Source of the DNA: Tunturiibacter empetritectus
Lineage (GTDB): Bacteria; Acidobacteriota; Terriglobia; Terriglobales; Acidobacteriaceae
DNA: 64,000 bases
NCBI RefSeq assembly: GCF_014201375.1
Contig: NZ_JACHDZ010000002.1
Coordinates: 558,001-622,000, forward strand
Direction: 5' to 3'
Part shown: positions 4,149-43,001 of the stretch, one piece after another
Layout of the letters: the number at the start of each line of letters is the position of its first letter
How positions within the stretch are numbered: the first letter of the stretch is position 1
Made by a program: the position numbers and the translations under genes
Notes under the pieces: model-generated
What the model was told of the DNA's origin: nothing
The model's database searches: none
What the model saw: only the letters and a program-made list of their open reading frames with translations

Positions 4149-5561
4149 GTGGCATCGATTGCAACTGCAGCAGGACTCCATGACGGACTAAAGTTGCTCT
4201 TTGCAACCAGCGATGACGCGGCCCTCCATGATATCGGCCAGGAGCTGGCACCTGCGTTCTTCATCCGCATGGCTCCAGACTCGGTAGCCCTCTTCCAAAG
4301 CCTCGCAGAGCAAACCCCCGAGATCGTCGTCATCGATCTCGACACGATCGTTCCCACCGGCACCGACGTCTTCGCTTACATCGAATCCGTGCGTGCCGCC
4401 GCGCCGCAGATCTTATGCCTCGCCATCTCGCGCACCCCTCTGCGAAATGCACGCCAGCGCACAAAAAAAGCAGGCGGAGACGAGTTCCTCCTCGCGCCGG
4501 TAGACTTTCCCGAACTCCGAGAGTATCTGCTGGAGGCGGGCACCCGCCATCGCGAGCGGCTCGAAGCAAACCAGCTGCGCAGCGAGATTGCCCGCAAGAG
4601 CACCTTCTGCGAGATGATCGGCGGAAGCGAAGCCATGCAACGCGTCTATGAGATCCTCCGCCGCGTGGCATCGAGCAACAGCACCGTCATGTTGCGCGGA
4701 GAGAGCGGAACCGGAAAAGAACTCGCCGCCCGCGCCATCGTCTCCCTGAGCCCTCGCCGCAACCAGCCCATGATCAGCGTCAACTGCGCCGCCCTCCCCG
4801 AGACCCTGATGGAGTCCGAGCTCTTCGGCCACGAAAAAGGATCCTTCACCGGGGCTCACGCCGCCCATCCCGGACAGATCGAACTAGCCGACGGCGGAAC
4901 GTTATTCCTCGACGAGATCGGCTCGCTCAGCCTGCCGCTCCAGAGCAAGCTGCTGCGCGTGCTCCAGGAGCGGGTCGTCCAGCGAATCGGCGGCAAAAGC
5001 CCGCGAAAGATAGATTTCAGGCTGATCGCCGCGACCAACGACAATCTGGACCAGATGGTAAAGAGGGGTCAGTTTCGTGAAGACCTCTACTACCGGATCT
5101 GCGTCATCCCCGTCTTCCTTCCACCCTTGAGGGAGCGGACAGGAGATGTGCCCCTCCTGCTGGACCACTATCTCAGGATGTATTGCACGGCAGGAGATCT
5201 GCCGCAGAAGCGTTTTTCGCCCGAAGCTTTGCAGGTTCTGGAGACAAGCACCTGGCCGGGCAATGTAAGGGAGCTGGAAAATCTAGCCCAGCGCCTGGCC
5301 CTCATGGTTGACGGCGATCTGATTGAAGTTCACCATCTTCCGGATAAGGTGATCTACGAGAATACGGCGAAACAGGACGAGATCCTGGTGCCTGCGGACG
5401 GCCTCGATCTCGACGATGAGCTGGCCCGTATCGAAGTCGCCTATCTCACGGCGGCACTACGCAGGGCTGGCACCAAGAACGGAGCGGCCACCCTGTTGCA
5501 GATCTCCAAGGAAAAGATGAAGTACCTCTGCCGAAAATATCAGCTCAATCAGGAGGGTTGA
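4149..5561 (+). CDS. Sigma-54-dependent enhancer-binding activator, NtrC type
   Basis: Activates transcription by sigma-54 RNA polymerase through ATP hydrolysis. Residues 15-130 form a receiver-like domain with VVIDLD (D63, D65) but with APVDF where receivers have an invariant Lys-Pro, so it may be phosphorylation-independent. The AAA+ domain (about 155-380) has Walker A GESGTGKE (184-191), the sigma-54 contact loop GSFTGA (231-236; GAFTGA is usual), Walker [11 protein letters not shown] and [10 protein letters not shown]. The C-terminus is a Fis-like helix-turn-helix ([26 protein letters not shown]). It starts at GTG 4149. It lies directly upstream of a dyad and a perfect sigma-54 promoter that precedes the hexad-repeat gene, so that gene is its probable target. 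Confidence 0.92.
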
Positions 5562-5587
5562 AATTTAACCCCCGTAGGGTTAAATTT
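5561..5587. promoter_or_regulatory. 11-bp perfect dyad, candidate activator binding site (UAS)
   Basis: Left arm AAATTTAACCC (5561-5571), five-base loop CCGTA, right arm GGGTTAAATTT (5577-5587). It begins at the last base of the activator gene and lies about 100-125 bases upstream of the -24 element, the usual distance for an enhancer-binding protein site. There is no T-run after it (GCCCC follows), so a role as an operator fits better than a terminator, although it could still end the activator transcript. Confidence 0.55.
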
Positions 5588-5685
5588 GCCCCTAGGCGCA
5601 GGCTCCTGGAGACATAGAAGACATCGGCAGTGCAGGAGACCCCACAAATCACCTAGTTTTCGCGTGGAACGAGTTCCTTAGCGTT

Positions 5686-5701
5686 TGGCACGGGGATTGC
5701 A
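5686..5701 (+). promoter_or_regulatory. Sigma-54 (-24/-12) promoter
   Basis: TGGCACGGGGATTGCA matches the sigma-54 consensus TGGCACG-N4-TTGCA at every position, with GG at 5687-5688 and GC at 5699-5700 in exact 12-base register. Transcription should start near 5712, 43 bases before the ATG of the hexad-repeat gene at 5755. The gene just upstream encodes a sigma-54 activator. Confidence 0.9.
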
Positions 5702-5754
5702 ATCATGTATGGCAACAGCCACTAGCTGATTCAGACATTCGGAGGAAACACATC

Positions 5755-6042
5755 ATGGCTATCCAGAAGAAATCATTGATCAGCAACCTCGAGTCAACCA
5801 AGAAGTCTGCCCCAGCCACCAAGAGCGCAAAGTCCGACGTGTCGGTATCGAACGCTCCAGTGGCCAGCCGTGTCATGCTGGCGAAGAAGGCCGCTGGCGG
5901 CGTCTCCCTGTCCAAACAAGCTCACCTGTCCAAGCAGGTCTCGCTCTCCAAACAGGCCCACCTGTCCAAGCAGGTCTCGCTCTCCAAACAGGCCACCCTG
6001 TCCAAGCAGATCTCTCTCTCCAAGAGAGCGGTGGAGTTATAG
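5755..6042 (+). CDS. Basic hexad-repeat (LSKQ) protein, possible exported peptide precursor
   Basis: A 95-residue protein with no family I recognise. Residues 1-49 form a Lys/Ser/Ala-rich leader ending in KKAAGG (44-49). Residues 51-92 are seven consecutive hexads of the form [SHT]-L-S-K-Q-[AVI], and the protein ends RAVEL. It has 15 lysines and only three acidic residues. The GG before the repeat resembles a double-glycine leader junction. The hexad fits the pattern of left-handed beta-helix repeats (L at i, small/aliphatic at i+4), but 42 residues would make little more than two coils. The ribosome binding site GGAGG (5741-5745) is strong. It is expressed from a perfect sigma-54 promoter and faces an operon for an M50 protease and HlyD-type adaptors, suggesting a processed and exported product; that is inference. 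Confidence 0.8.
   Translation: MAIQKKSLISNLESTKKSAPATKSAKSDVSVSNAPVASRVMLAKKAAGGVSLSKQAHLSKQVSLSKQAHLSKQVSLSKQATLSKQISLSKRAVEL
5905..6030 (+). repeat. Tandem 18/36-base coding repeats
   Basis: Seven 18-base units encoding the LSKQ hexads of the protein at 5755. Higher-order 36-base units alternate S-type and H-type hexads three times before diverging to T and S types. The last unit has Arg instead of Gln. Confidence 0.9.
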
Positions 6043-6156
6043 AAGCAGATATCTGCCAATTGGGCCTCTCTGACCAGATTTGATTGCACGCTTTTCGGTT
6101 TAGGCCGACGATGTTTCTTTGGATGTCTGTTCGTGGTTCTCTTATCGAAGTACGGA

Positions 6157-6186
6157 AAAGAGGAAGAGTTACGGCTCTTCCTCTTT
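6157..6186. terminator. Two-way terminator between convergent genes
   Basis: A perfect 12-bp stem, AAAGAGGAAGAG (6157-6168) paired with CTCTTCCTCTTT (6175-6186), with the six-base loop TTACGG. It lies between the hexad-repeat gene and the convergent M50 gene, and has A-rich/T-rich flanks on both sides, so it can serve both transcripts. Confidence 0.75.
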
Positions 6187-6201
6187 CTCGTTAAGCTCTC
6201 C

Positions 6202-8349
6202 TTACCAGATCTTCCGATCGAAAAACTCCCTTAGCTCTTTGCCGATGAGACCCATGACGCTTCGACGTTGTACCGTGATCTTTGCCGTTCCAGTCATGCC
6301 ATCGTGCAGAGTGCCATCGTTGGGTATCAATGCGTCGGCGACATAGTACTTCAGGATGTCTTCTTTCCCGCTCTTAGGCCCCTCGAGCGCGGCCGCCAAA
6401 GCCTCCGGTGCCGCCTGCATATACTCCAGGCGAGTGGTAGCCGGTGAGAATCGCCCATCCACCAGCAGATGAACCTTGGCCCCGTTCTGCACTCGCGGCA
6501 CAGCATATTCCAGGACAAACATCCGAACCCGCATCTCTTCGGTCTCGCCTATCTCTGCAATCGTGGCACCGGCATCCAAGTACGTGCCCGCGAGATCCCG
6601 CAGATGCGACGTCATCACCGTACCCGCTATGGGCGCGCTCGGGGCAAGCTGTTCGGTCTCCTCCTGTGCGATGGTTCGCTCTACTCCCGCGCGCGTATGT
6701 TCCTGCGACACAGAGCTAAGATCAGCCTGCGTTAGCTGAGCCTGCACCCGTTTCACACCGGTAAGAGTGAACTCCTCCTGTGATCTCGTACGCCCGGCAT
6801 CTACCTGAGCGTTTTGCATTCTGACTAAGGGCTCCCCAACAATAACGCTCTGCCCCTCAGCAACCAGCACCTCTGCAACCCGGCCGGGAACGATCGTTCT
6901 CACAACCTCGCGCCGGCTTGGCTCCAGGACAAACCTGGCGCTTACTGTTTCGTGCAGGACGGGTGCGAACAAAAGAGCCAGAAGAACAGCCGCAGCCACA
7001 CTAAAGCGAGTGGCAGTGAACCACGATCGAACCCGGTCTTTTTTGTCCAGATACACAGTTTGAACGAACCTCAGAAAGATGCGAATACGCGAGCGAAAGA
7101 TGACCACTGCTAGAGCCAGAGCGGGCACGAACGCCCAGTCGGGGCTGTACTTCAGAAAGACGTTATGGCTGAAACGTATCACGGTGTACAGAAGACTGTA
7201 GCTATAAACGCCAGAGAGGACGGCATACAGAAGATAGCCGAAACGCCGGCGCCTGGGTACATACTCCACCTCGACAGGAAGCCGAAAGATGCTTCCCCTT
7301 ACAAGACTCGAAAGGTACGCCGTCGACTTCTCCTTGATATCCGAGAAGCCAATCACCTCGGAAAAAGCGTAGTAGCCGTCCAGCTTGATCAACGGATTCA
7401 TATTCACAACGATCACCGCGACACCCGTCAACAGCATGATCTTGTACGCAAGATCGTGCGCGTCGCTTCCTGCAGGCGTCCCCCACCACACGATCGTCGC
7501 AATGGCACAGAAGATCATCTCCACCCATATCCCGGCGATGATCGTAACCAGACGTTGCCAGCGGTTCGCGTAGACCCAGGCTTCACTCACATCAACGAAG
7601 AATGCTGGAGTCAGAAAGATGAGATGAAAGCCCATCGCATGGACCTCTGCTCCGTAGTGTTTGCAAGTCAGCCCATGTGCGGACTCATGAAAGAACCCCA
7701 GTATCAAAAACAGAATCCAGAACTCCGCAAGATCGGATGCGCTCTTCTCCGTGAACGTATAAAACTGAACGGTATCTCGACCAATCTGAGCCCAGTTCGC
7801 GAAGAACAAAACCGTCATGAATCCGAACAGAAGCAGCGTAAGCCCAGTAAACCATCGTGAGTAGAGCCAGCGGGAGTAAGGATAGATCCAATTGAAGTAT
7901 CGGTCAGGATCCCACGCAGAGAACTGCATGTGCGAGATGTCACCCCACTTCGACTTGCGATTGGTATGTTGATGCCTGCTGCTTTCAAGCTTCTGCTGCA
8001 GCGCAATATTTTTTTCGAGCGGTGTCTTGTACCAGAAATCCGCGTCATCCAGGCCGCCGGCGAACTCCTTCAGATCATCCGTGCTATAGACCACGCCATA
8101 AAGCTCCGCATGGGCCGCCGCTACCTCTTCGTACGAGCGTGTTCCATCGAACAACTCCACAATTCGCCACTGCTCTGGGCTAAATCGATAGATCTTGTCC
8201 GTGCCGCGAATGAGCGCAACAATAATCGGCGCCCCATCTTCCACATTTTCGCGGAACACCAGCGCAGGATCCAGCTTCGGATGTGTGCTCCGGCTTCTGC
8301 GTGAAGGGAGATCGGGCAGCGCCGCATTGAATGCTTCGGCGAGATTCAT
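6202..8349 (-). CDS. PqqD-like / M50 zinc metalloprotease / HlyD fusion membrane protein
   Basis: A 715-residue polytopic membrane protein. Residues 25-110 resemble a PqqD-like winged-helix peptide-binding domain (FRENVEDGAPIIVAL..YRFSPEQWRIVELFDGTRSYEEV). Membrane helices follow from about 165. The intramembrane protease motifs are HESAH (221-225) and NMNPLIKLDG (316-325), the site-2-protease metal ligands. After another helix (about 450-470) comes a HlyD/biotinyl-lipoyl half (VLEPSRREVVRTIVPGRVAEVLVAEGQSVIVGEPL) ending near a basic tail. Proteins of this build are known from peptide and RiPP-type export or modification loci. The start ATG overlaps the stop of the HlyD gene (ATGA at 8346-8349). 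It is the last gene of a three-gene operon. Confidence 0.88.
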   Translation of the reverse strand: MNLAEAFNAALPDLPSRRSRSTHPKLDPALVFRENVEDGAPIIVALIRGTDKIYRFSPEQWRIVELFDGTRSYEEVAAAHAELYGVVYSTDDLKEFAGGLDDADFWYKTPLEKNIALQQKLESSRHQHTNRKSKWGDISHMQFSAWDPDRYFNWIYPYSRWLYSRWFTGLTLLLFGFMTVLFFANWAQIGRDTVQFYTFTEKSASDLAEFWILFLILGFFHESAHGLTCKHYGAEVHAMGFHLIFLTPAFFVDVSEAWVYANRWQRLVTIIAGIWVEMIFCAIATIVWWGTPAGSDAHDLAYKIMLLTGVAVIVVNMNPLIKLDGYYAFSEVIGFSDIKEKSTAYLSSLVRGSIFRLPVEVEYVPRRRRFGYLLYAVLSGVYSYSLLYTVIRFSHNVFLKYSPDWAFVPALALAVVIFRSRIRIFLRFVQTVYLDKKDRVRSWFTATRFSVAAAVLLALLFAPVLHETVSARFVLEPSRREVVRTIVPGRVAEVLVAEGQSVIVGEPLVRMQNAQVDAGRTRSQEEFTLTGVKRVQAQLTQADLSSVSQEHTRAGVERTIAQEETEQLAPSAPIAGTVMTSHLRDLAGTYLDAGATIAEIGETEEMRVRMFVLEYAVPRVQNGAKVHLLVDGRFSPATTRLEYMQAAPEALAAALEGPKSGKEDILKYYVADALIPNDGTLHDGMTGTAKITVQRRSVMGLIGKELREFFDRKIW

Positions 8350-9248
8350 CTCGCAATCCGTACCGAGGCGACCGTGCCTGGGATAAGTCCCGGCAGCCGA
8401 TTCTTCAAAACGGCAGTCACTTCAATCGTGCCGCTGCCAGGGTCGACGACGGGACTCACGTGTGTCACCGTCGCATCGGTCGTCTGCTGGAACTCGGGCG
8501 TAGACGATACAGTCACCACCTCCCCCCGCTTCAGCAGAGCTGCCTCTGCCCCGGGCAAAGTGAATCGCACCTCAAGCGGCGACGCGCCCATCACGCGAAA
8601 GAGCTTATCTCCGGTCGTTACATATTGACCAAGCCGCACATAGCGTTGCGCCACCACCCCTTTGAAAGGCGCAACGAACTTTGTCTTCTCCAACTCCAGA
8701 TCAATCGATTGCAGGTTGGCCTTCGCGCTCAGCATCTCCCCGCGCTGCCGCTCCACTTCAAACTGGCTTGCGGCAACCTCGTAGCGGCTGTGGTCATAGG
8801 CCTCCTGGGTCGTGATTCCTTCCTTATGCATCGCCTCCGCCCGACGCATATCGGTCTCGCGAACCTGCAGTTCAGACTGCCAGTTCTTCAGGTCTGCTTC
8901 AAGACTCTCGACTCTAAACTTGGCCGTGTTGCGATCCGCCTCCAACTGGCGCGAATCGAGCCCCGCCATCAACTGACCTTTCTGCACCACGGTGTCCACA
9001 TCGGCCGGAAGAGTCACGATCACTCCAGCTCGAAGAGCCACAATATCGAGTTGCTGCTCGAGCGTAATAGGACCGCTAACGACCAGCTCGTGCGGCGGCG
9101 CCACGCTCTTCGCGGGCTGAGGGGCTGATGTCTGCCTGGTGCGCGTTCCCTCTCCCTGCACGGCGGGCAGTTGAGCTGTACTCGGAGCGCAACCAAGACA
9201 CATCGACAAGACAGACGCCGCAATCATCACCGCAAAGAGATGCTTCAT
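8346..9248 (-). CDS. HlyD/RND-type periplasmic adaptor lipoprotein
   Basis: A 300-residue membrane-fusion protein. I place the start at ATG 9248 because the following sequence is a lipoprotein signal (MKHLFAVMIAASVLSMCLGC, lipobox Cys at residue 20), and GGTGAGGA lies just upstream, overlapping the stop of the preceding gene. Then come the first lipoyl half (AGVIVTLPADVDTVVQKGQLM), a coiled-coil hairpin (RVESLEADLKNWQSELQVRETDMRRAEAM), the second lipoyl half (KFVAPFKGVVAQRYVRLGQYVTTGDKLF) and a beta-barrel ending GLIPGTVASVRIAR. It probably bridges the inner-membrane partners to an outer-membrane channel; no TolC gene is adjacent. Eight bases separate it from the upstream gene and it overlaps the downstream one. 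Confidence 0.9.
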   Translation of the reverse strand: MKHLFAVMIAASVLSMCLGCAPSTAQLPAVQGEGTRTRQTSAPQPAKSVAPPHELVVSGPITLEQQLDIVALRAGVIVTLPADVDTVVQKGQLMAGLDSRQLEADRNTAKFRVESLEADLKNWQSELQVRETDMRRAEAMHKEGITTQEAYDHSRYEVAASQFEVERQRGEMLSAKANLQSIDLELEKTKFVAPFKGVVAQRYVRLGQYVTTGDKLFRVMGASPLEVRFTLPGAEAALLKRGEVVTVSSTPEFQQTTDATVTHVSPVVDPGSGTIEVTAVLKNRLPGLIPGTVASVRIAR

Positions 9249-9256
9249 TTCGATCC

Positions 9257-11647
9257 TCACCAGCCAAACCAACTCCAAAGCCTCGACCATGTCCAGAGAG
9301 CCGCATCACGAAACAGCACATATCCCAACGGGCGCATCCCCACTCGAATCTTTCCGAGACCCTGCATTCCCGGCCTCAGATCACCCTTCGGATTGGGTAC
9401 GGCTACTCTCGCAAAGAAGACATGGACGTCGCCCATAGCTTTGCCCGATGGGCTGACCACACTAACCGTCCCGTTAAAGGTTGCGGTCGGGAACGACTCC
9501 AGTTTGATATTGGCCGGCGCGCCGGTCCGCAGAAGTTCGACATCCCGCTCCGGTACCGCGACATCCACGACCACGTTCTCCGTGCTCACCAACTCCACCA
9601 GCGAATCTCCGCTCGACAGTTTTTTCCCGACAAGATCTTCGACATGCGGCGTCGCAACAACGCCCGCTATCTCCGCATGGACCGTCGTTCGAGAGAGCCT
9701 GTCGCTCAACCGCGTCACTTCACCGTGCAGATAGTCCGACTCAAGTTGATGCTGCCCCGCAACCGTCGCATCGTTGTCAATCAGGGCGCGAGTCATCTGT
9801 GCCATCGCCGTGTTGTACTTCGCCTGTGCCGCAGCCAGACTCGCCCGCTGACCCCAATCCGTCATTTGAAGCAGCGGAGTTCCAGGCAGCACCGTGTCTC
9901 CCTCATGCACGAAGACCTTCTGCACCACGCTGTCTTCTTCCGCGTGAACATATTGAGTCTGGGCCGGGCTCACCTGCGCCTGTCCAACAACCCGCATCGG
10001 AAACGGCACCAGGATCAACGCAAGCAGCACGGCAGCGCACGTGGTCAAAATCAGCGCGCGCCGACGCTTCTCAATGGCCATAAAGCGGCGTCTTTTTTCG
10101 ATGAGAGGCTCGAGTATGCCAATAAACGGAACTTCCTTGTAGAGCGAAGCATTCCGCAAGGCAAGAGTCGCCTGGCTCGCCAGAATCTTGATGATCTCAA
10201 AGTGCAGCGTAGTCAGAAAATCCGGATCGGAGCTCTCAAACGACAGTATTCCTAGGGTGCCTTCGTCATCTCCGAGAGGGATGGCATAGAAGCTGCGCGA
10301 ACCAGTCGTCTCGAAGTAGCGCCGAAATTTCTCGCGGGTCTCAGGCCGCGTATCGCTGATCTCCTCCTCATGTTGCGTGACATAAACCTCCGTCTCCAAC
10401 CCCGCCACCCAACTGAGCAGGCCATTGAGCGACACGACCTCCGGGCTCGAAAGATCCAGCTTTGTCACCCCGGAGACAGCCTGAACCGTAACTCTGTTTC
10501 TCTGTTCCAGTGCAATCGCCGCGCGCTCATACGGAATCACAAGCTGCGGTTGATTCACGATAGCCTGCAGGACCCGCTGCAAATTCAGCGTGGAAGTTAT
10601 CTCCTGACTCACGCTAACCAGCGTTTGAAGAATCTCAATCTTTCGTTCTGCCTGCAAAAGAGAAGAGTTATGCAGCGCCTGCGCCGCCGATTCGGCCACC
10701 TGCGTCAACGTGAAGAGATCGTCATCGCTGAAGCGAAACTCCGGATCATAGCTGACCACCTCAAGCACGCCGGTCAAGGTCTCGTCTTTCACCAAAGGTG
10801 CAGCCATCAAGGAACTTGCCGCGGCCTCTGTTGATCGCAGATTCCGCTGTTGCAACGCATCGTCGTCTCCCTGCAACAAAACGGTTTCGCCGGTCTCGCC
10901 GACATCTCCCACGATGCCCTCACCCGCCACCTGGCGATCTCCCACTCCCGCGGCCGAATCCTCGCCAGCCTGCTGTATCAGCATCAGATCGTCTTGATCG
11001 ACCATCCACAAATTGACTACGGTAGCTCCCACGAGATCCTGCACCTTCGCGCAGATCACAGGAAGCAGCTCCTGCATCTCGAGCGTCGCATTGAACACTT
11101 TTTCAATGTCGTAAAGTTGCGTGAGCCGAAGCACCGAAGCCAGGCCGGCATTTCGTTCCGACTCATAAAGCAGAGCTGCGCCGAAGGCAACCGCCGCACT
11201 GTCGGTCAACTCTACGACGGTTTCGAGCACCCCCTCCGTAGGTGGCTCAGAAAAACTAACAATCTCAACGCAGCCCAGTAACTCTTCCTGAAGTAAGACA
11301 GGGATATAAGTAAGAGAACTAAAGCTTTGGCGAATATCAAGATGCGCAAAGTCTTCTCGACTCAAATCCTCGGCGCTGAATTGCAGAATCGTGCGCTCCG
11401 TTGCCACGGCACCAAGGCCTCCCGAATCGAATGGAATCCCACGCCGGTCGACGGACACATCGCCTACGGCGGCCTTCAACATCCAGGCCGCCCTTTTGCT
11501 GTCGAGCAGATACACAAGAATCGAAGACCCCGGCAACAGATCGGAGATGCCGAGCGACAAAATCCGCGCACGAGGGCCGCTCTCCAACTCCCCTAACAGA
11601 GAGATCGAAAATCTTTCAAGCAGAGACGCACCAGCCGGATCGTTCAA
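9257..11647 (-). CDS. Triple-GAF sensor fused to an HlyD-type adaptor
   Basis: A 796-residue protein starting at TTG 11647. Residues 1 to about 500 hold three GAF-like domains (for example VVNLWMVDQDDLMLIQQAGE and SFYAIPLGDDEGTLGILSFESSDPDFLT). A basic stretch EKRRRALILTT leads into one membrane helix (about 525-548), and the rest is an HlyD adaptor with split lipoyl motifs (VVQKVFVHEGDTVLPGTPLLQM; TVHAEIAGVVATPHVEDLVGKKLSSGD) and a barrel ending RPGMQGLGKIRV. The GAF part should be cytoplasmic and the adaptor periplasmic. It is first in an operon with a second HlyD protein and the M50-HlyD fusion. A ligand-gated adaptor is a reasonable inference, but no ligand can be named. Confidence 0.87.
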   Translation of the reverse strand: MNDPAGASLLERFSISLLGELESGPRARILSLGISDLLPGSSILVYLLDSKRAAWMLKAAVGDVSVDRRGIPFDSGGLGAVATERTILQFSAEDLSREDFAHLDIRQSFSSLTYIPVLLQEELLGCVEIVSFSEPPTEGVLETVVELTDSAAVAFGAALLYESERNAGLASVLRLTQLYDIEKVFNATLEMQELLPVICAKVQDLVGATVVNLWMVDQDDLMLIQQAGEDSAAGVGDRQVAGEGIVGDVGETGETVLLQGDDDALQQRNLRSTEAAASSLMAAPLVKDETLTGVLEVVSYDPEFRFSDDDLFTLTQVAESAAQALHNSSLLQAERKIEILQTLVSVSQEITSTLNLQRVLQAIVNQPQLVIPYERAAIALEQRNRVTVQAVSGVTKLDLSSPEVVSLNGLLSWVAGLETEVYVTQHEEEISDTRPETREKFRRYFETTGSRSFYAIPLGDDEGTLGILSFESSDPDFLTTLHFEIIKILASQATLALRNASLYKEVPFIGILEPLIEKRRRFMAIEKRRRALILTTCAAVLLALILVPFPMRVVGQAQVSPAQTQYVHAEEDSVVQKVFVHEGDTVLPGTPLLQMTDWGQRASLAAAQAKYNTAMAQMTRALIDNDATVAGQHQLESDYLHGEVTRLSDRLSRTTVHAEIAGVVATPHVEDLVGKKLSSGDSLVELVSTENVVVDVAVPERDVELLRTGAPANIKLESFPTATFNGTVSVVSPSGKAMGDVHVFFARVAVPNPKGDLRPGMQGLGKIRVGMRPLGYVLFRDAALWTWSRLWSWFGW

Positions 11648-11895: not shown

Positions 11896-13335
11896 CTACT
11901 CCACTTCAAAGGCCACATACTGCAAGACCGACTGGCGTTCCACCTCTAATGCTACCGAGTCTCCCGGTTTGAAGTTTGCAAGCTGCTGCCGCAACTCCTC
12001 GGTGGTATTCAGCGGCCTCCCGTTGATCGCGCGGACTACGTCCCCTACCTCAAGCGAGGCGAGCGTAGCAGGCTCTCCCGATAGAACGCCGGCCACCACA
12101 ACCCCACGCTTCGAGCGCAGTCCAGGCAAAGCCGCAGCGATAAAATCATTGAGATCGACCACAAAGATGCCGAGCGAGGGAATAAGATCCTTCTTCGGAT
12201 TTGTGAGATCCGACAAGCTATCCACCATCGGAAGCGAATCAACCGCGTTGACCGAGAGTGTCATCTGCTTCCCGACGCGTGACACCACCATACGGAGCGG
12301 CGCTCCCCGCGTGTGCACATAGAGAAATGCCGTGTACTTTGGAAACGAGTCGATTGGAACGCCATCGATCATCTCCACAATATCGCCAGGTTTCAGCCCC
12401 GCTGCTGCGGCCGGCCCACCCATATCCACATCAGAGAAGATCACGCCATGATCTTGAGTCAGCTTCAGGCCCGCGGCAAGGTCAGGAGTGATCGCCTGCG
12501 CATGCGCTCCAATTGAAACCGAAGGTACAAATCCGTGCGCTTTCAACTCGTAGTACACAAAGCGAACTACAGGCTCGGGAACCGCGAATCCCAAGCCCTC
12601 GCTTCCGCCTCCAGAGCTATAGATAAAGGTGTTGATCCCGATCAAGTTGCCGTCGCGATCGATCAGCGGTCCACCACTATTGCCGGGATTGATCGGCGCA
12701 TCGGTCTGCACGTACACCATCGGGCGATCCAACTCGGGCTGTCTGCCCACCGCACTGATGATTCCCTTGGTGATCGTATGGTCCAGCCCCTGCGGCGATC
12801 CAATCGCAATCACGGTCTGTCCCAAACGCACGTGAAACGGCTCCGGCAGCGCAATCGCAGGAAGGTCGTGAGCCTCGATCTTGATGACCGCAAGATCGGC
12901 GTATCGATTCGTGCCGATCAACTTCGCTTCGTAGACGCGCTGCGGATTCGCCAGTTGCGTGTGCCACGTTACCAACTCCACGGTCGTCGGCGCAACGATC
13001 ACGCGAATGCGAAGCGCACCCGCGACGACGTGGTTGTTGGTCACGATATAGCCGTCCGGATCGACAATAACCCCCGACCCAATCACGCGCTGTCGTTGCA
13101 AAGTCGTCGGATCCGCATCGTCGTCGCTGCTTTCCGGTTTTCCAAAGCCGGTAACTTCTATCTGCACCACCGAGTGCATGGCGTGTTCGGCAACCTCATC
13201 GATGGCCTGGTCATACTCCCGCAAAATAGCCGACCTGTCGCCGGAAGCACCCGTTGTCTCTGCACTCTGGCCAGAGGCAGGCAACCATACGGAGAGGAAT
13301 AAAAGAGCAGAGGCAACCGGGATCGCGAGTTTCAT
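11896..13335 (-). CDS. HtrA/DegP-type serine protease with two PDZ domains
   Basis: Envelope quality-control protease, 479 residues. The signal peptide is MKLAIPVASALLFLSVWLPASGQ. The trypsin-like domain carries the triad H102 (TNNHVVAG), D147 (YADLAVIKIE) and S220 (NPGNSGGPLID). Two PDZ domains follow (about 275-365, GVIFSDVDMGGPAAAAGLKPGDIVEMIDG; and about 385-475, GVVVAGVLSGEPATLASLEVGDVVRAINGRPL). This is the DegP/DegQ plan. It stands alone, 249 bases downstream of the GAF-HlyD start region and on the same strand, so it is probably transcribed separately. Functional links to the export locus are possible but not shown by the sequence. Confidence 0.93.
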   Translation of the reverse strand: MKLAIPVASALLFLSVWLPASGQSAETTGASGDRSAILREYDQAIDEVAEHAMHSVVQIEVTGFGKPESSDDDADPTTLQRQRVIGSGVIVDPDGYIVTNNHVVAGALRIRVIVAPTTVELVTWHTQLANPQRVYEAKLIGTNRYADLAVIKIEAHDLPAIALPEPFHVRLGQTVIAIGSPQGLDHTITKGIISAVGRQPELDRPMVYVQTDAPINPGNSGGPLIDRDGNLIGINTFIYSSGGGSEGLGFAVPEPVVRFVYYELKAHGFVPSVSIGAHAQAITPDLAAGLKLTQDHGVIFSDVDMGGPAAAAGLKPGDIVEMIDGVPIDSFPKYTAFLYVHTRGAPLRMVVSRVGKQMTLSVNAVDSLPMVDSLSDLTNPKKDLIPSLGIFVVDLNDFIAAALPGLRSKRGVVVAGVLSGEPATLASLEVGDVVRAINGRPLNTTEELRQQLANFKPGDSVALEVERQSVLQYVAFEVE

Positions 13336-41570: not shown

Positions 41571-43001
41571 ATGGTGAAAAAAAAGACATCTTTGCGTGGA
41601 GCAACATGCCGCATAGGTAAGAGACTACTGGTGGCGGCCTCCGTGGTGCCGGTTGTGCTCGTCTCGCCGCTATTGCTTCTCGCTCAGCAGTCTAACGCTG
41701 CTGCCGCTGCAGTGGATTTGCCCAACGCCACCAGCGTGCACCTTACGCTCCCTGGCGCAGTCGAGATGGCGCTAGCGCACAACCGCCACATTATGCTGGC
41801 CCATCTGTCGGTGACCGATAGCGAAGCGCAGAAGAAAGTGGCCGAGTCGCACTTTTATCCAATCATCAAGAACCAGTCTGCGGTCCTACACATTACAGAA
41901 CTTGAGGGAGTAAGAATTCCTGCCGGAGCCGTCGGAGAGACACCTGCGGGCGTCTTGCCTGCAGAGACTCTCATTATTGGCCAGGGCGGTGCCACAAGCT
42001 ATACGAGTGGGACCGAACTCGCCCAACCCATAACGCAAATCTTCAAAATCCGCGCGGGCGTAAAGGCCGCTGAGGCCGATCTTAACTCGGCGCACATTCA
42101 GTCTGATGACGCCGAGAATGGCGTCGCCCTTCTTGTCCACAAGCTTTATTACGGCATTCTTATTGAGCAGTTACGTGGGACGGCCGCAAAAGACGCCGTC
42201 GACGCCGCAACATTGGTAGAGCATGAGACAAAGCGGGGTGTCGATGAGGGGAAGCTCCTGGCCGACTCCGAGCTATCGAGTCGCGCAGACTTACTCGATA
42301 AACAGCAAACTGCTCTCGTCTCGCGGCTCAACCTTGACGATCTTACGTTGCAACTCGACGACGCGCTTGGCTTGCCGCTTGGCACTCACCTTATCCTGGA
42401 CCCAGACTCACTCGGCGTTTCCTCAGTGCTTCCCACGCGTGCTGAGGCAATTGCACTTTTGCTCAACAAAAGCCCTGCGATATTGTCGGCCACGCAGACG
42501 GTAGACAAAGCGAAGGCTGGTGTCGCCGCGGCGCGAGACGAATACATCCCCGATCTAACAGGAGTAGCTCGCTACAGCTACCAGAGTGGCCTGCCTTTTC
42601 TGGTTCATAACTTTGGAACCTTTGGAGCCAGCTTCACTTACACCTTGTTCGACGGTGGCGAGCGCGAAGCCAAGCTCCAGGACGCACGTATCAAGCTCAC
42701 GATGGCGCAGACTCAATTGAAGCAGACCGAGGCAGATGTAAGCATTGAGTTGTCGTCCGCCTATGACAAAGCAGAACAGCTTGAACAACTGGTAGGAGTG
42801 ACAACTCAAGCTCTCGAGGCTCGTGAAGAGAGCTTCCGCATTCAAAGCGAGCGAGCAAAGGTTGATGCTCAACTCGCCTCTGGAGTGGCAACAGCCCATG
42901 CAACGTTGACCTCCACACGTATGAATGTGCTCAATTCTCAACTGAACTTGTCGCTCGCCCGGAACAACATCCGGCGTCTTCTGGGAGAGCGGCCGGAATG
43001 A
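41571..43001 (+). CDS. TolC-family outer-membrane efflux protein
   Basis: I start it at ATG 41571 because a signal peptide follows (KRLLVAASVVPVVLVSPLLLLAQQ); a frame from 41478 runs inside the transporter gene. The 476-residue protein has two repeats of the TolC fold: LTLPGAVEMALAHNRHIMLAHLSVTDSEAQKKVAESHFYP and RAEAIALLLNKSPAILSATQTVDKAKAGVAAARDEYIPDLTG, each with long helices and short barrel strands (FGASFTYTLFDGGEREAKL). It is the outer-membrane channel of the pump encoded by the two preceding genes. 27 bases separate it from the transporter gene. Confidence 0.92.
   Translation: MVKKKTSLRGATCRIGKRLLVAASVVPVVLVSPLLLLAQQSNAAAAAVDLPNATSVHLTLPGAVEMALAHNRHIMLAHLSVTDSEAQKKVAESHFYPIIKNQSAVLHITELEGVRIPAGAVGETPAGVLPAETLIIGQGGATSYTSGTELAQPITQIFKIRAGVKAAEADLNSAHIQSDDAENGVALLVHKLYYGILIEQLRGTAAKDAVDAATLVEHETKRGVDEGKLLADSELSSRADLLDKQQTALVSRLNLDDLTLQLDDALGLPLGTHLILDPDSLGVSSVLPTRAEAIALLLNKSPAILSATQTVDKAKAGVAAARDEYIPDLTGVARYSYQSGLPFLVHNFGTFGASFTYTLFDGGEREAKLQDARIKLTMAQTQLKQTEADVSIELSSAYDKAEQLEQLVGVTTQALEAREESFRIQSERAKVDAQLASGVATAHATLTSTRMNVLNSQLNLSLARNNIRRLLGERPE

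Follow-up and report, generated by a model that had tools for sequence, protein, structure and literature searches.

A candidate sigma-54-controlled system for the processing and export of repeat peptides in Acidobacteria

The acidobacterial locus and its nearest described relatives

Proteins of M50+HlyD, HlyD and GAF+HlyD architecture have been reported beside a secondary SecA_DEAD protein, as a cassette for which a role in secretion was proposed, with SecA as a possible ATPase and the M50 protein as a possible pore (Kamneva, Poudel and Ward 2015, PMC4452313). In the parts of that paper considered here, the role is termed "completely unknown", the locus sometimes carries an OEP gene and has no ATP-binding cassette (ABC) transporter, and no client is named; the phyla in its title do not include Acidobacteria. 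Here we describe a locus that encodes the same three architectures together, within a 64,000-nucleotide stretch of Tunturiibacter empetritectus DNA (contig NZ_JACHDZ010000002.1, positions 558,001 to 622,000; hereafter the window). The host is an acidobacterium whose genome is assembled to 4.83 Mb in 15 contigs, and the closest named relatives are Edaphobacter lichenicola and Granulicella. The likeness to the 2015 cassette is drawn at the level of protein architecture. Unlike the 2015 locus, as those parts of the paper describe it, the acidobacterial version adds a small precursor peptide, a sigma-54 activator and paired upstream sites, and is without a secondary SecA: SecA_DEAD was matched just once, with no second match to count as secondary, in every one of 18 genomes from the order (12 that have the system and 6 that lack it) and likewise in 4 genomes from a second acidobacterial clade. 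The original prediction for this DNA, made from its letters, knew of no described system with this set of genes; this no longer holds for the three-protein cassette, on record since 2015.

The M50 enzymes of daptide and epipeptide clusters are the nearest functional parallels. Daptide MpaP, as portrayed in the relevant part of its description, is a fusion of a RiPP (ribosomally synthesized and post-translationally modified peptide) recognition element (RRE) with an intramembrane (PF02163) peptidase (PMC10036551), an arrangement shared by the M50-HlyD protein described below. The daptide model NF041824 aligned over residues 24-391 of M50-HlyD at 149.8 bits, i.e., under the NCBIfam cut-off of 300, and from its length of 379 positions it would contain no HlyD part; moreover, no decarboxylase, aminotransferase or methyltransferase was recognised at the acidobacterial locus, in contrast to daptide clusters. 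For the epipeptide YydF/EpeX, part of a published account has the M50 protease EpeP/YydH proposed to cut and export the ribosomal peptide (PMC10885120). The corresponding model, NF058609, scored 40.6 bits against M50-HlyD (cut-off 225). Epipeptide clusters also comprise a radical-SAM epimerase and an ABC pair, neither of which was recognised at the acidobacterial locus. Type I secretion (ABC-HlyD-TolC) and MacAB-TolC differ from the locus in that it has no ABC transporter and in that its adaptor is fused to a protease and a leader-binding domain. A term search of the main text of two RRE-finding papers returned no mention of M50 or HlyD, and among the papers listed by a search of open-access full texts, with subscription literature outside its scope, only PMC4452313 was found to describe the cassette.

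The features of the locus are listed in Table 1. Those named in the original prediction, i.e., an activator gene, a dyad, a perfect sigma-54 promoter and an LSKQ-repeat protein gene facing the operon, were all confirmed at their stated positions. We consider it probable that together they form a self-contained inducible system for peptide processing and secretion, in which RRE, M50 and adaptor domains would work with a TolC-type channel encoded elsewhere. The system is real and conserved, and its pairing, regulation and domain anatomy are well supported; leader binding, cleavage and export are what we infer.

Table 1. Features of the window locus, and long proteins near related cassettes in other phyla (coordinates of the respective locus)
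Feature	Position	Strand	Basis or remark
Sigma-54 enhancer-binding activator, degenerate receiver-like N-terminus	4149..5561	+	PF00158 sigma-54 interaction domain, E 1e-69
Upstream activator-type site 1, GGTTGAAATTTAACC	5556..5570	.	1 mismatch to GGTTAANNNTTAACC; overlaps activator stop codon
Perfect dyad AAATTTAACCC-N5-GGGTTAAATTT, 11-bp arms	5561..5587	.	spans parts of both activator-type sites
Upstream activator-type site 2, GGTTAAATTTGCCCC	5578..5592	.	3 mismatches to GGTTAANNNTTAACC; 22 bp from site 1
Sigma-54 promoter TGGCACGGGGATTGCA	5686..5701	+	sole strict TGGCAY-N5-TTGCW match, both strands, 64 kb
Precursor peptide, 95 aa: conserved leader and tandem-repeat core	5755..6042	+	
Conserved leader MAIQKKSLISNLESTKKSAPATKS	5755..5826	+	alignment; high identity in columns 1-22
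Tandem repeat core, xxLSKQ hexads in 12-residue pairs	5902..6024	+	TRF array
M50-HlyD, 715 aa: RRE, M50 (site-2 type) metalloprotease and MacA-like adaptor fusion	6202..8349	-	
Predicted RRE (PqqD-like leader-binding) domain, residues 24-108	8026..8280	-	predicted fold matches RRE/PqqD structures
HlyD/RND-type periplasmic adaptor, probable lipoprotein	8346..9248	-	TIGR01730 137.2 bits vs cut-off 94.9
GAF-HlyD, 796 aa: two GAF domains and HlyD adaptor	9257..11647	-	GAF_2 E 8.5e-27, HlyD_D23 E 4.5e-24
Long KKLExR-type protein, L130	10957-15432		near related M50 cassette
Long KKLExR-type protein, L131	8109-11803		near related M50 cassette
Long KKLExR-type protein, L132	5192-8230		near related M50 cassette
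Long KKLExR-type protein, L134	13045-16725		near related M50 cassette
Long KKLExR-type protein, L135	6245-9649		near related M50 cassette
Long KKLExR-type protein, L141	7882-11296		near related M50 cassette

A leader-bearing repeat peptide and its partner operon

In order to follow the peptide across genomes, we used a profile of its leader, as whole-peptide searches were noisy: at E<=1 they hit 44 of 120 genomes, for the most part weakly. Across 289 genomes of the order with completeness of at least 90% (leader E<=0.001), M50-HlyD was found in 56 and the leader in 50; both were present in 47, the leader alone in 3, M50-HlyD alone in 9 and neither in 230 (p 4e-41). In the family-level sample of 120 genomes, which overlaps the former, M50-HlyD (E<=1e-10) was found in 28 and the leader (E<=0.05) in 26 (both in 25, leader alone in 1, M50-HlyD alone in 3, neither in 91; p 2e-21). 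Forty-six of the 53 leaders lay on the same contig as the M50-HlyD gene, and all 46 were convergent with it, starting 257-747 bp from its end.

Each exception examined can be put down to a contig edge, a divergent leader or a decaying locus. Divergent leaders (AITKKSLIG, AIAKKSIV and AVTKKSLIG) stood in place in G319, G190 and G313, each with a sigma-54 box, and the leader of G015 was detected at E 0.0098. The M50-HlyD match stopped about 60 bp short of the contig end in G112 and G116, the contigs ended 8 and 2 bp after it in G271 and G272 (the coordinates of L094 and L075), only 217 bp of flank were available in G235, and a contig start was, by coordinates, at most 600 bp away in G051 and at most 130 bp away in G257. 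One of the three M50-only genomes of the family (G041) holds a partial match that is 24% identical, and in G292 a leader adjoins an open frame of 313 residues, similar by eye to the C-terminal part of M50-HlyD. The main clade comprises 49 named loci (L063-L110 and L112), which with the window make a set of 50; the peptide was seen in 38 of the 49, the 3' flank was 271 bp or less in 10, and in the remaining one, L110, the M50 stretch is broken and no peptide was seen. These sequence comparisons strongly support the view that, within the order, peptide and operon form one system, a link that the original prediction had proposed. Of the two findings that, by the original prediction, would speak against the link, neither was made within the order: leader-bearing peptides were not regularly operon-free, nor did this operon clade regularly have other neighbours. 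Related cassettes outside it do have other neighbours, namely other small peptides and long proteins.

As expected of a RiPP precursor, the peptide combines a conserved leader with a variable core. Mean pairwise identity among 27 peptides was 0.59 in alignment columns 1-22 vs 0.14 elsewhere, and the family leader approximates to M(A/S/T)IQKKSLIS.....KKA(I/L)(I/V)A. A protein search with the window peptide yielded nine proteins at E<=0.01 among 1117 candidates, its own entry included; all nine share the 18-residue stretch MAIQKKSLISNLESTKKS, while their repeats vary (LSKQAH, LSKKAT, LSKNIS, LSKVA). In a profile search that scored 7990 candidates, 74 proteins reached E<=1, the same nine among them; where a name was given it was 'hypothetical protein' (one entry was unreadable), and two had a precomputed Pfam domain. 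In a Pfam/NCBIfam scan of the 27 peptides, no family matched more than two at E 0.01. The peptides contain 0-1 Cys, with 0-3 aromatic residues in their cores except in L048, which has 8, and the cores of two related peptides are acidic.

The window peptide carries LSKQ six times and seven LSK at 6-residue intervals (aa 52-88), and its repeat score was unmatched by any of 300 shuffles. The hexad of the original prediction thus stands for this peptide but is not fixed: cores are mostly tandem repeats that depend on lineage (LSGGRGN, LSGAKG, APNKL, RVTPHA, RVQS, RGTT, NSPLS, NQPLLK, GHSPKVV, GGALSK, AADAGSM and more). A significant repeat (P<0.01; 300 shuffles, floor 0.003) was present in 41 of 46 peptides tested, which include close relatives and so are not independent, with best periods of 3 to 12; a single fixed solenoid period was rejected on these grounds. 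Between neighbouring repeat units of 32 peptides, synonymous sites differed at 0.54 and non-synonymous sites at 0.074, a ratio biased low by the pre-selection of unit positions for repeat identity. That codons have diverged between units shows, however, that the repeats are old and maintained at the protein level. DNA slippage without protein selection was ruled out, given the synonymous difference of 0.54 between units whose residues are unchanged.

The facing operon runs on the minus strand in the order GAF-HlyD, HlyD protein, M50-HlyD. M50-HlyD bears HESAH at residue 221 and NPLIKLDG at 318, i.e., HExxH and NPxxxxDG-type signatures, of which H221, E222, H225, N318, P319, D324 and G325 were invariant in 27 of 27 relatives. 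Its M50 assignment comes from these motifs and from profiles: a full-length fold search was dominated by the adaptor domain, and the 41 sequences at E<=0.01 in a profile search of solved structures were, by name, adaptors, biotin-domain proteins and a few others, with no M50 protease among them. The PqqD-like region named in the original prediction is hardly detected by Pfam (PF05402 in one of 27 relatives, E 0.094) but its predicted fold does match RRE/PqqD structures; it is by predicted fold alone that a cluster protein here has the RRE of RiPP clusters. In G007 the M50-HlyD gene (C37:5487-7596) is split over two frames (matches 1-164 and 178-715), owing either to a frameshift or to an error in sequencing, and still adjoins a peptide with GGALSK repeats. 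The HlyD protein gene overlaps the M50-HlyD gene by 4 bp; its longest open reading frame (ORF) starts at 9290, ATG 9248 being the likelier start. Its N-terminus (MKHLF...LSMCLGC) shows by eye a signal and lipobox that a lipobox regular expression missed, and the protein carries a TolC-tip-like motif, RAEAMHKEGITT. GAF-HlyD has a probable transmembrane segment near residue 528, as judged by eye.

Sequence evidence for sigma-54 control of the peptide gene

The elements of enhancer-dependent sigma-54 regulation, i.e., an AAA+ activator, a -24/-12 promoter and upstream sites, are all present at the sequence level. The peptide gene starts 53 bp after the promoter box and has a GGAGG ribosome-binding site. 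Of 36 peptide genes, 27 had a box scoring at least 13.5 (maximum 14.5) in the 120 bp upstream; the background, in which these boxes are themselves included, was 0.074 per kb per strand. A chance promoter was ruled out by this recurrence and by the uniqueness of the strict match in the window. Within 250 bp, such a box preceded none of 33 operons and 2 of 33 activator genes. For the peptide gene, sigma-54 control is strongly supported.

Homologues of the activator lie beyond the peptide, on the convergent strand, in 36 of the 50 loci. Among 31 aligned, the GAFTGA Phe is kept in 29. Since the Asp of the receiver-like domain is kept in 28 but its Lys site mostly lost (Lys in 5, Ala in 17), an ordinary phosphorelay through this domain seems doubtful.

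A generic inverted-repeat test was significant in 13 of 37 peptide upstreams only, and the repeats it listed share GGTTAANNNTTAACC. When 39 upstreams from the main clade, namely those of 36 loci, of L065 and L066 and of the window, were scanned at up to 3 mismatches, 38 contained at least one GGTTAANNNTTAACC site, the exception being L088, and 33 contained two or more (background 0.24 per kb, main-clade sites counted in). Paired sites lay 22 bp apart in 27 of these 33 upstreams and 21 or 23 bp apart in the rest, and their centres often lie 136 and 114 bp before the -24 box; the centre of site 1 in the window lies 123 bp upstream of it. In the second acidobacterial clade, 2 of 10 upstreams had a site. 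At up to 1 mismatch, the window's own genome contains just one match besides site 1. Ten genomes searched likewise contained six exact sites, five of them within about 250 bp upstream of the leader, and three of the ten had no match. The pattern reversed as a control matched 0-26 times per genome, which puts one-mismatch sites elsewhere at the level expected by chance. From these searches, it is probable that the activator is dedicated to the peptide promoter. The sixth (G045:C4:161553-161567) lies about 1.7 kb upstream of the leader, beyond the activator, and about 1.5 kb beyond the peptide-promoter site towards the start of the activator gene; it would fit self-regulation of the activator.

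Surroundings, related cassettes and proposed mechanism

Neighbouring ORFs of at least 90 aa were clustered over the 50 loci, many on short contigs, and the 28 largest clusters were judged by eye. An adaptor-domain cluster was present in 50 of 50 loci and the activator cluster in 36; a STAS-like protein (anti-sigma-antagonist-like, by eye; e.g., L081 14449-14787) was present in 15, and all other clusters in 8 or fewer. Thus, beyond adaptors and activator, no cluster exceeded 15 of 50 loci, and no ABC transporter, TolC or tailoring enzyme was recognised among the frequent clusters, i.e., neither the modifying enzyme of a RiPP cluster nor the transporter that accompanies adaptor genes in type I secretion. 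At the window locus, too, no ABC transporter or TolC gene was seen, in line with the original prediction; elsewhere in the genome there are 27 OEP domain matches, at about two per protein. One such match pair marks a TolC-type gene at 41757-42986 of the window, about 30 kb from the locus. An HtrA/DegP-type protease gene (11896-13335, same strand) lies upstream of GAF-HlyD, its cluster being found in 2 of 50 loci, and an ATPase-like protein lies near the system in 3 of 50.

The second acidobacterial clade comprises 18 loci (L111, L113-L129) with M50 proteins about 30-35% identical and the same three-gene layout where flanks allow. A GAFTGA-type activator sequence lies on the convergent strand in 13 of the 18, and in 14 a small peptide could be picked by eye in the convergent gap, some with LQRAS or LQRTA repeats and others of 26-42 residues without clear repeats. 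A box of at least 13.5 preceded 8 of 15 candidate peptides within 200 bp (L118 has two), and a promoter-plus-start DNA pattern for these peptides was matched in 1 of 15 genomes. In L123 (5739-6269), L125 (9929-10504) and L128 (8874-9062), another leader, MADPKSVVIKLTNEQQEAIRRATGQEI or MVEKFSVTVPLTARQKAQIKKATGRTI, takes the usual one's place, with RKAPL-type repeats in two of the three. L117 and L122 each have two tiny Lys-rich peptides behind sigma-54 boxes, and between these and the M50 gene a protein that we take, from its motifs, to be SET-domain-like (L117 12199-12681, L122 12128-12715).

In Planctomycetota, Oligoflexia, Bacteriovoracaceae and Lindowbacteria, related cassettes are accompanied by a long protein, at whose N-terminus stand a Lys-rich stretch and the motif KKLE(E/D)R(I/V)AP or one of its variants. 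A profile of six such N-termini had exactly one match (E<=0.1) in eight of ten genomes and none in two; seven matches fell in the M50 locus, at distances from the M50 gene that reach about 9 kb (in L133), six of these seven proteins being themselves in the profile, and the eighth (E 0.028) lay outside the fetched M50 locus. A protein search for further clients of this type found 3 among 74 candidates, two of them named Oligoflexia. In an NCBIfam scan of five long proteins (four of L130, L131, L132, L134, L135 and L141, and one from L139), none exceeded a family cut-off, and LEPR-XLL, considered as a known name for the N-terminal motif, gave no such match among them. Among ten flanking proteins chosen for scanning, OEP was found in five loci and GAF-HlyD in two, and no ABC transporter was found. 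At least two SecA_DEAD matches, some weak, were present in 7 of 9 genomes searched from other phyla; in the seven relatives with a KKLExR protein, they lay on contigs other than that protein's.

The three HlyD-family proteins and the abundance of TolC-type proteins elsewhere in the genome would also suit a type I-like system with dispersed genes: the adaptors would work with an ABC or other exporter encoded at another place, and the M50 protein would merely clip the leader. We regard this as unlikely, as the adaptor is fused to the protease, not paired with a pump, and no ABC gene was recognised at the locus, in clusters of more than 15 of the 50 loci (judged with no hidden Markov model scan) or among the ten flanking proteins from other phyla. 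M50 enzymes often function in signalling, and GAF domains are sensory; with activator, peptide and operon adjacent, the peptide might instead stay in the cell as a cytosolic or membrane regulator, its cleavage signalling through the GAF protein or the activator by regulated intramembrane proteolysis. A core that is hypervariable yet repeat-conserved behind a conserved leader would be odd for a regulator, however, three adaptors would be left unexplained, and related cassettes lie near TolC and long proteins, which leaves this reading a little less likely still.

On a third reading, the peptides would be Lys-rich, histone H1/HC2-like nucleic-acid-binding proteins that merely share an intergenic region with an unrelated operon. 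One of the 27 matches histone H1-like NF038053 (E 7.8e-5) and one matches HC2 (PF07382 E 0.0027; NF038052 E 0.0097), but other single matches (FliH, LpxD and more) resemble chance low-complexity hits, the leader is conserved though composition varies, and two related peptides have acidic cores. The near 1:1 co-occurrence and fixed convergent layout with the operon make this explanation highly improbable.

Under the processing and secretion system that we favour, the AAA+ activator would bind the two sites, which were found at some 100-140 bp upstream with about 22 bp between them, and would drive sigma-54 transcription of the peptide gene. The product, a precursor with a conserved leader and a lineage-specific, usually tandem-repeat core, would be bound at its leader by the predicted RRE of M50-HlyD; at the inner membrane, the conserved M50 site would then cut it within or close to that leader. 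The three adaptors may form a periplasmic conduit that docks, chiefly by means of its lipoprotein, on a TolC-type channel whose gene lies elsewhere, through which the repeat polypeptide would leave the cell; outside, it could perhaps act as a kin- or niche-specific signal, an antagonist or a surface polymer. More tentatively, at somewhat short of even chances, the related cassettes may represent an ABC-free, SecA-free secretion class in which one protein unites leader-recognition domain, intramembrane protease and periplasmic adaptor, and binds, clips and exports a client with an N-terminal leader. Each machine would usually have one dedicated client, i.e., repeat peptides in Acidobacteria and long KKLExR-type proteins in the other four groups.

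A candidate cargo is now on hand for a secretion module whose role has been unassigned since the 2015 report. The peptides constitute a large natural set of repeat polypeptides that share a fixed leader, and lysine methylation of the tiny Lys-rich peptides of L117 and L122 is worth a look, given the neighbouring, presumably SET-domain-like protein. Both the identity of the cargo and an ABC-free exit route can now be tested in Edaphobacter and Granulicella strains that are available in culture.

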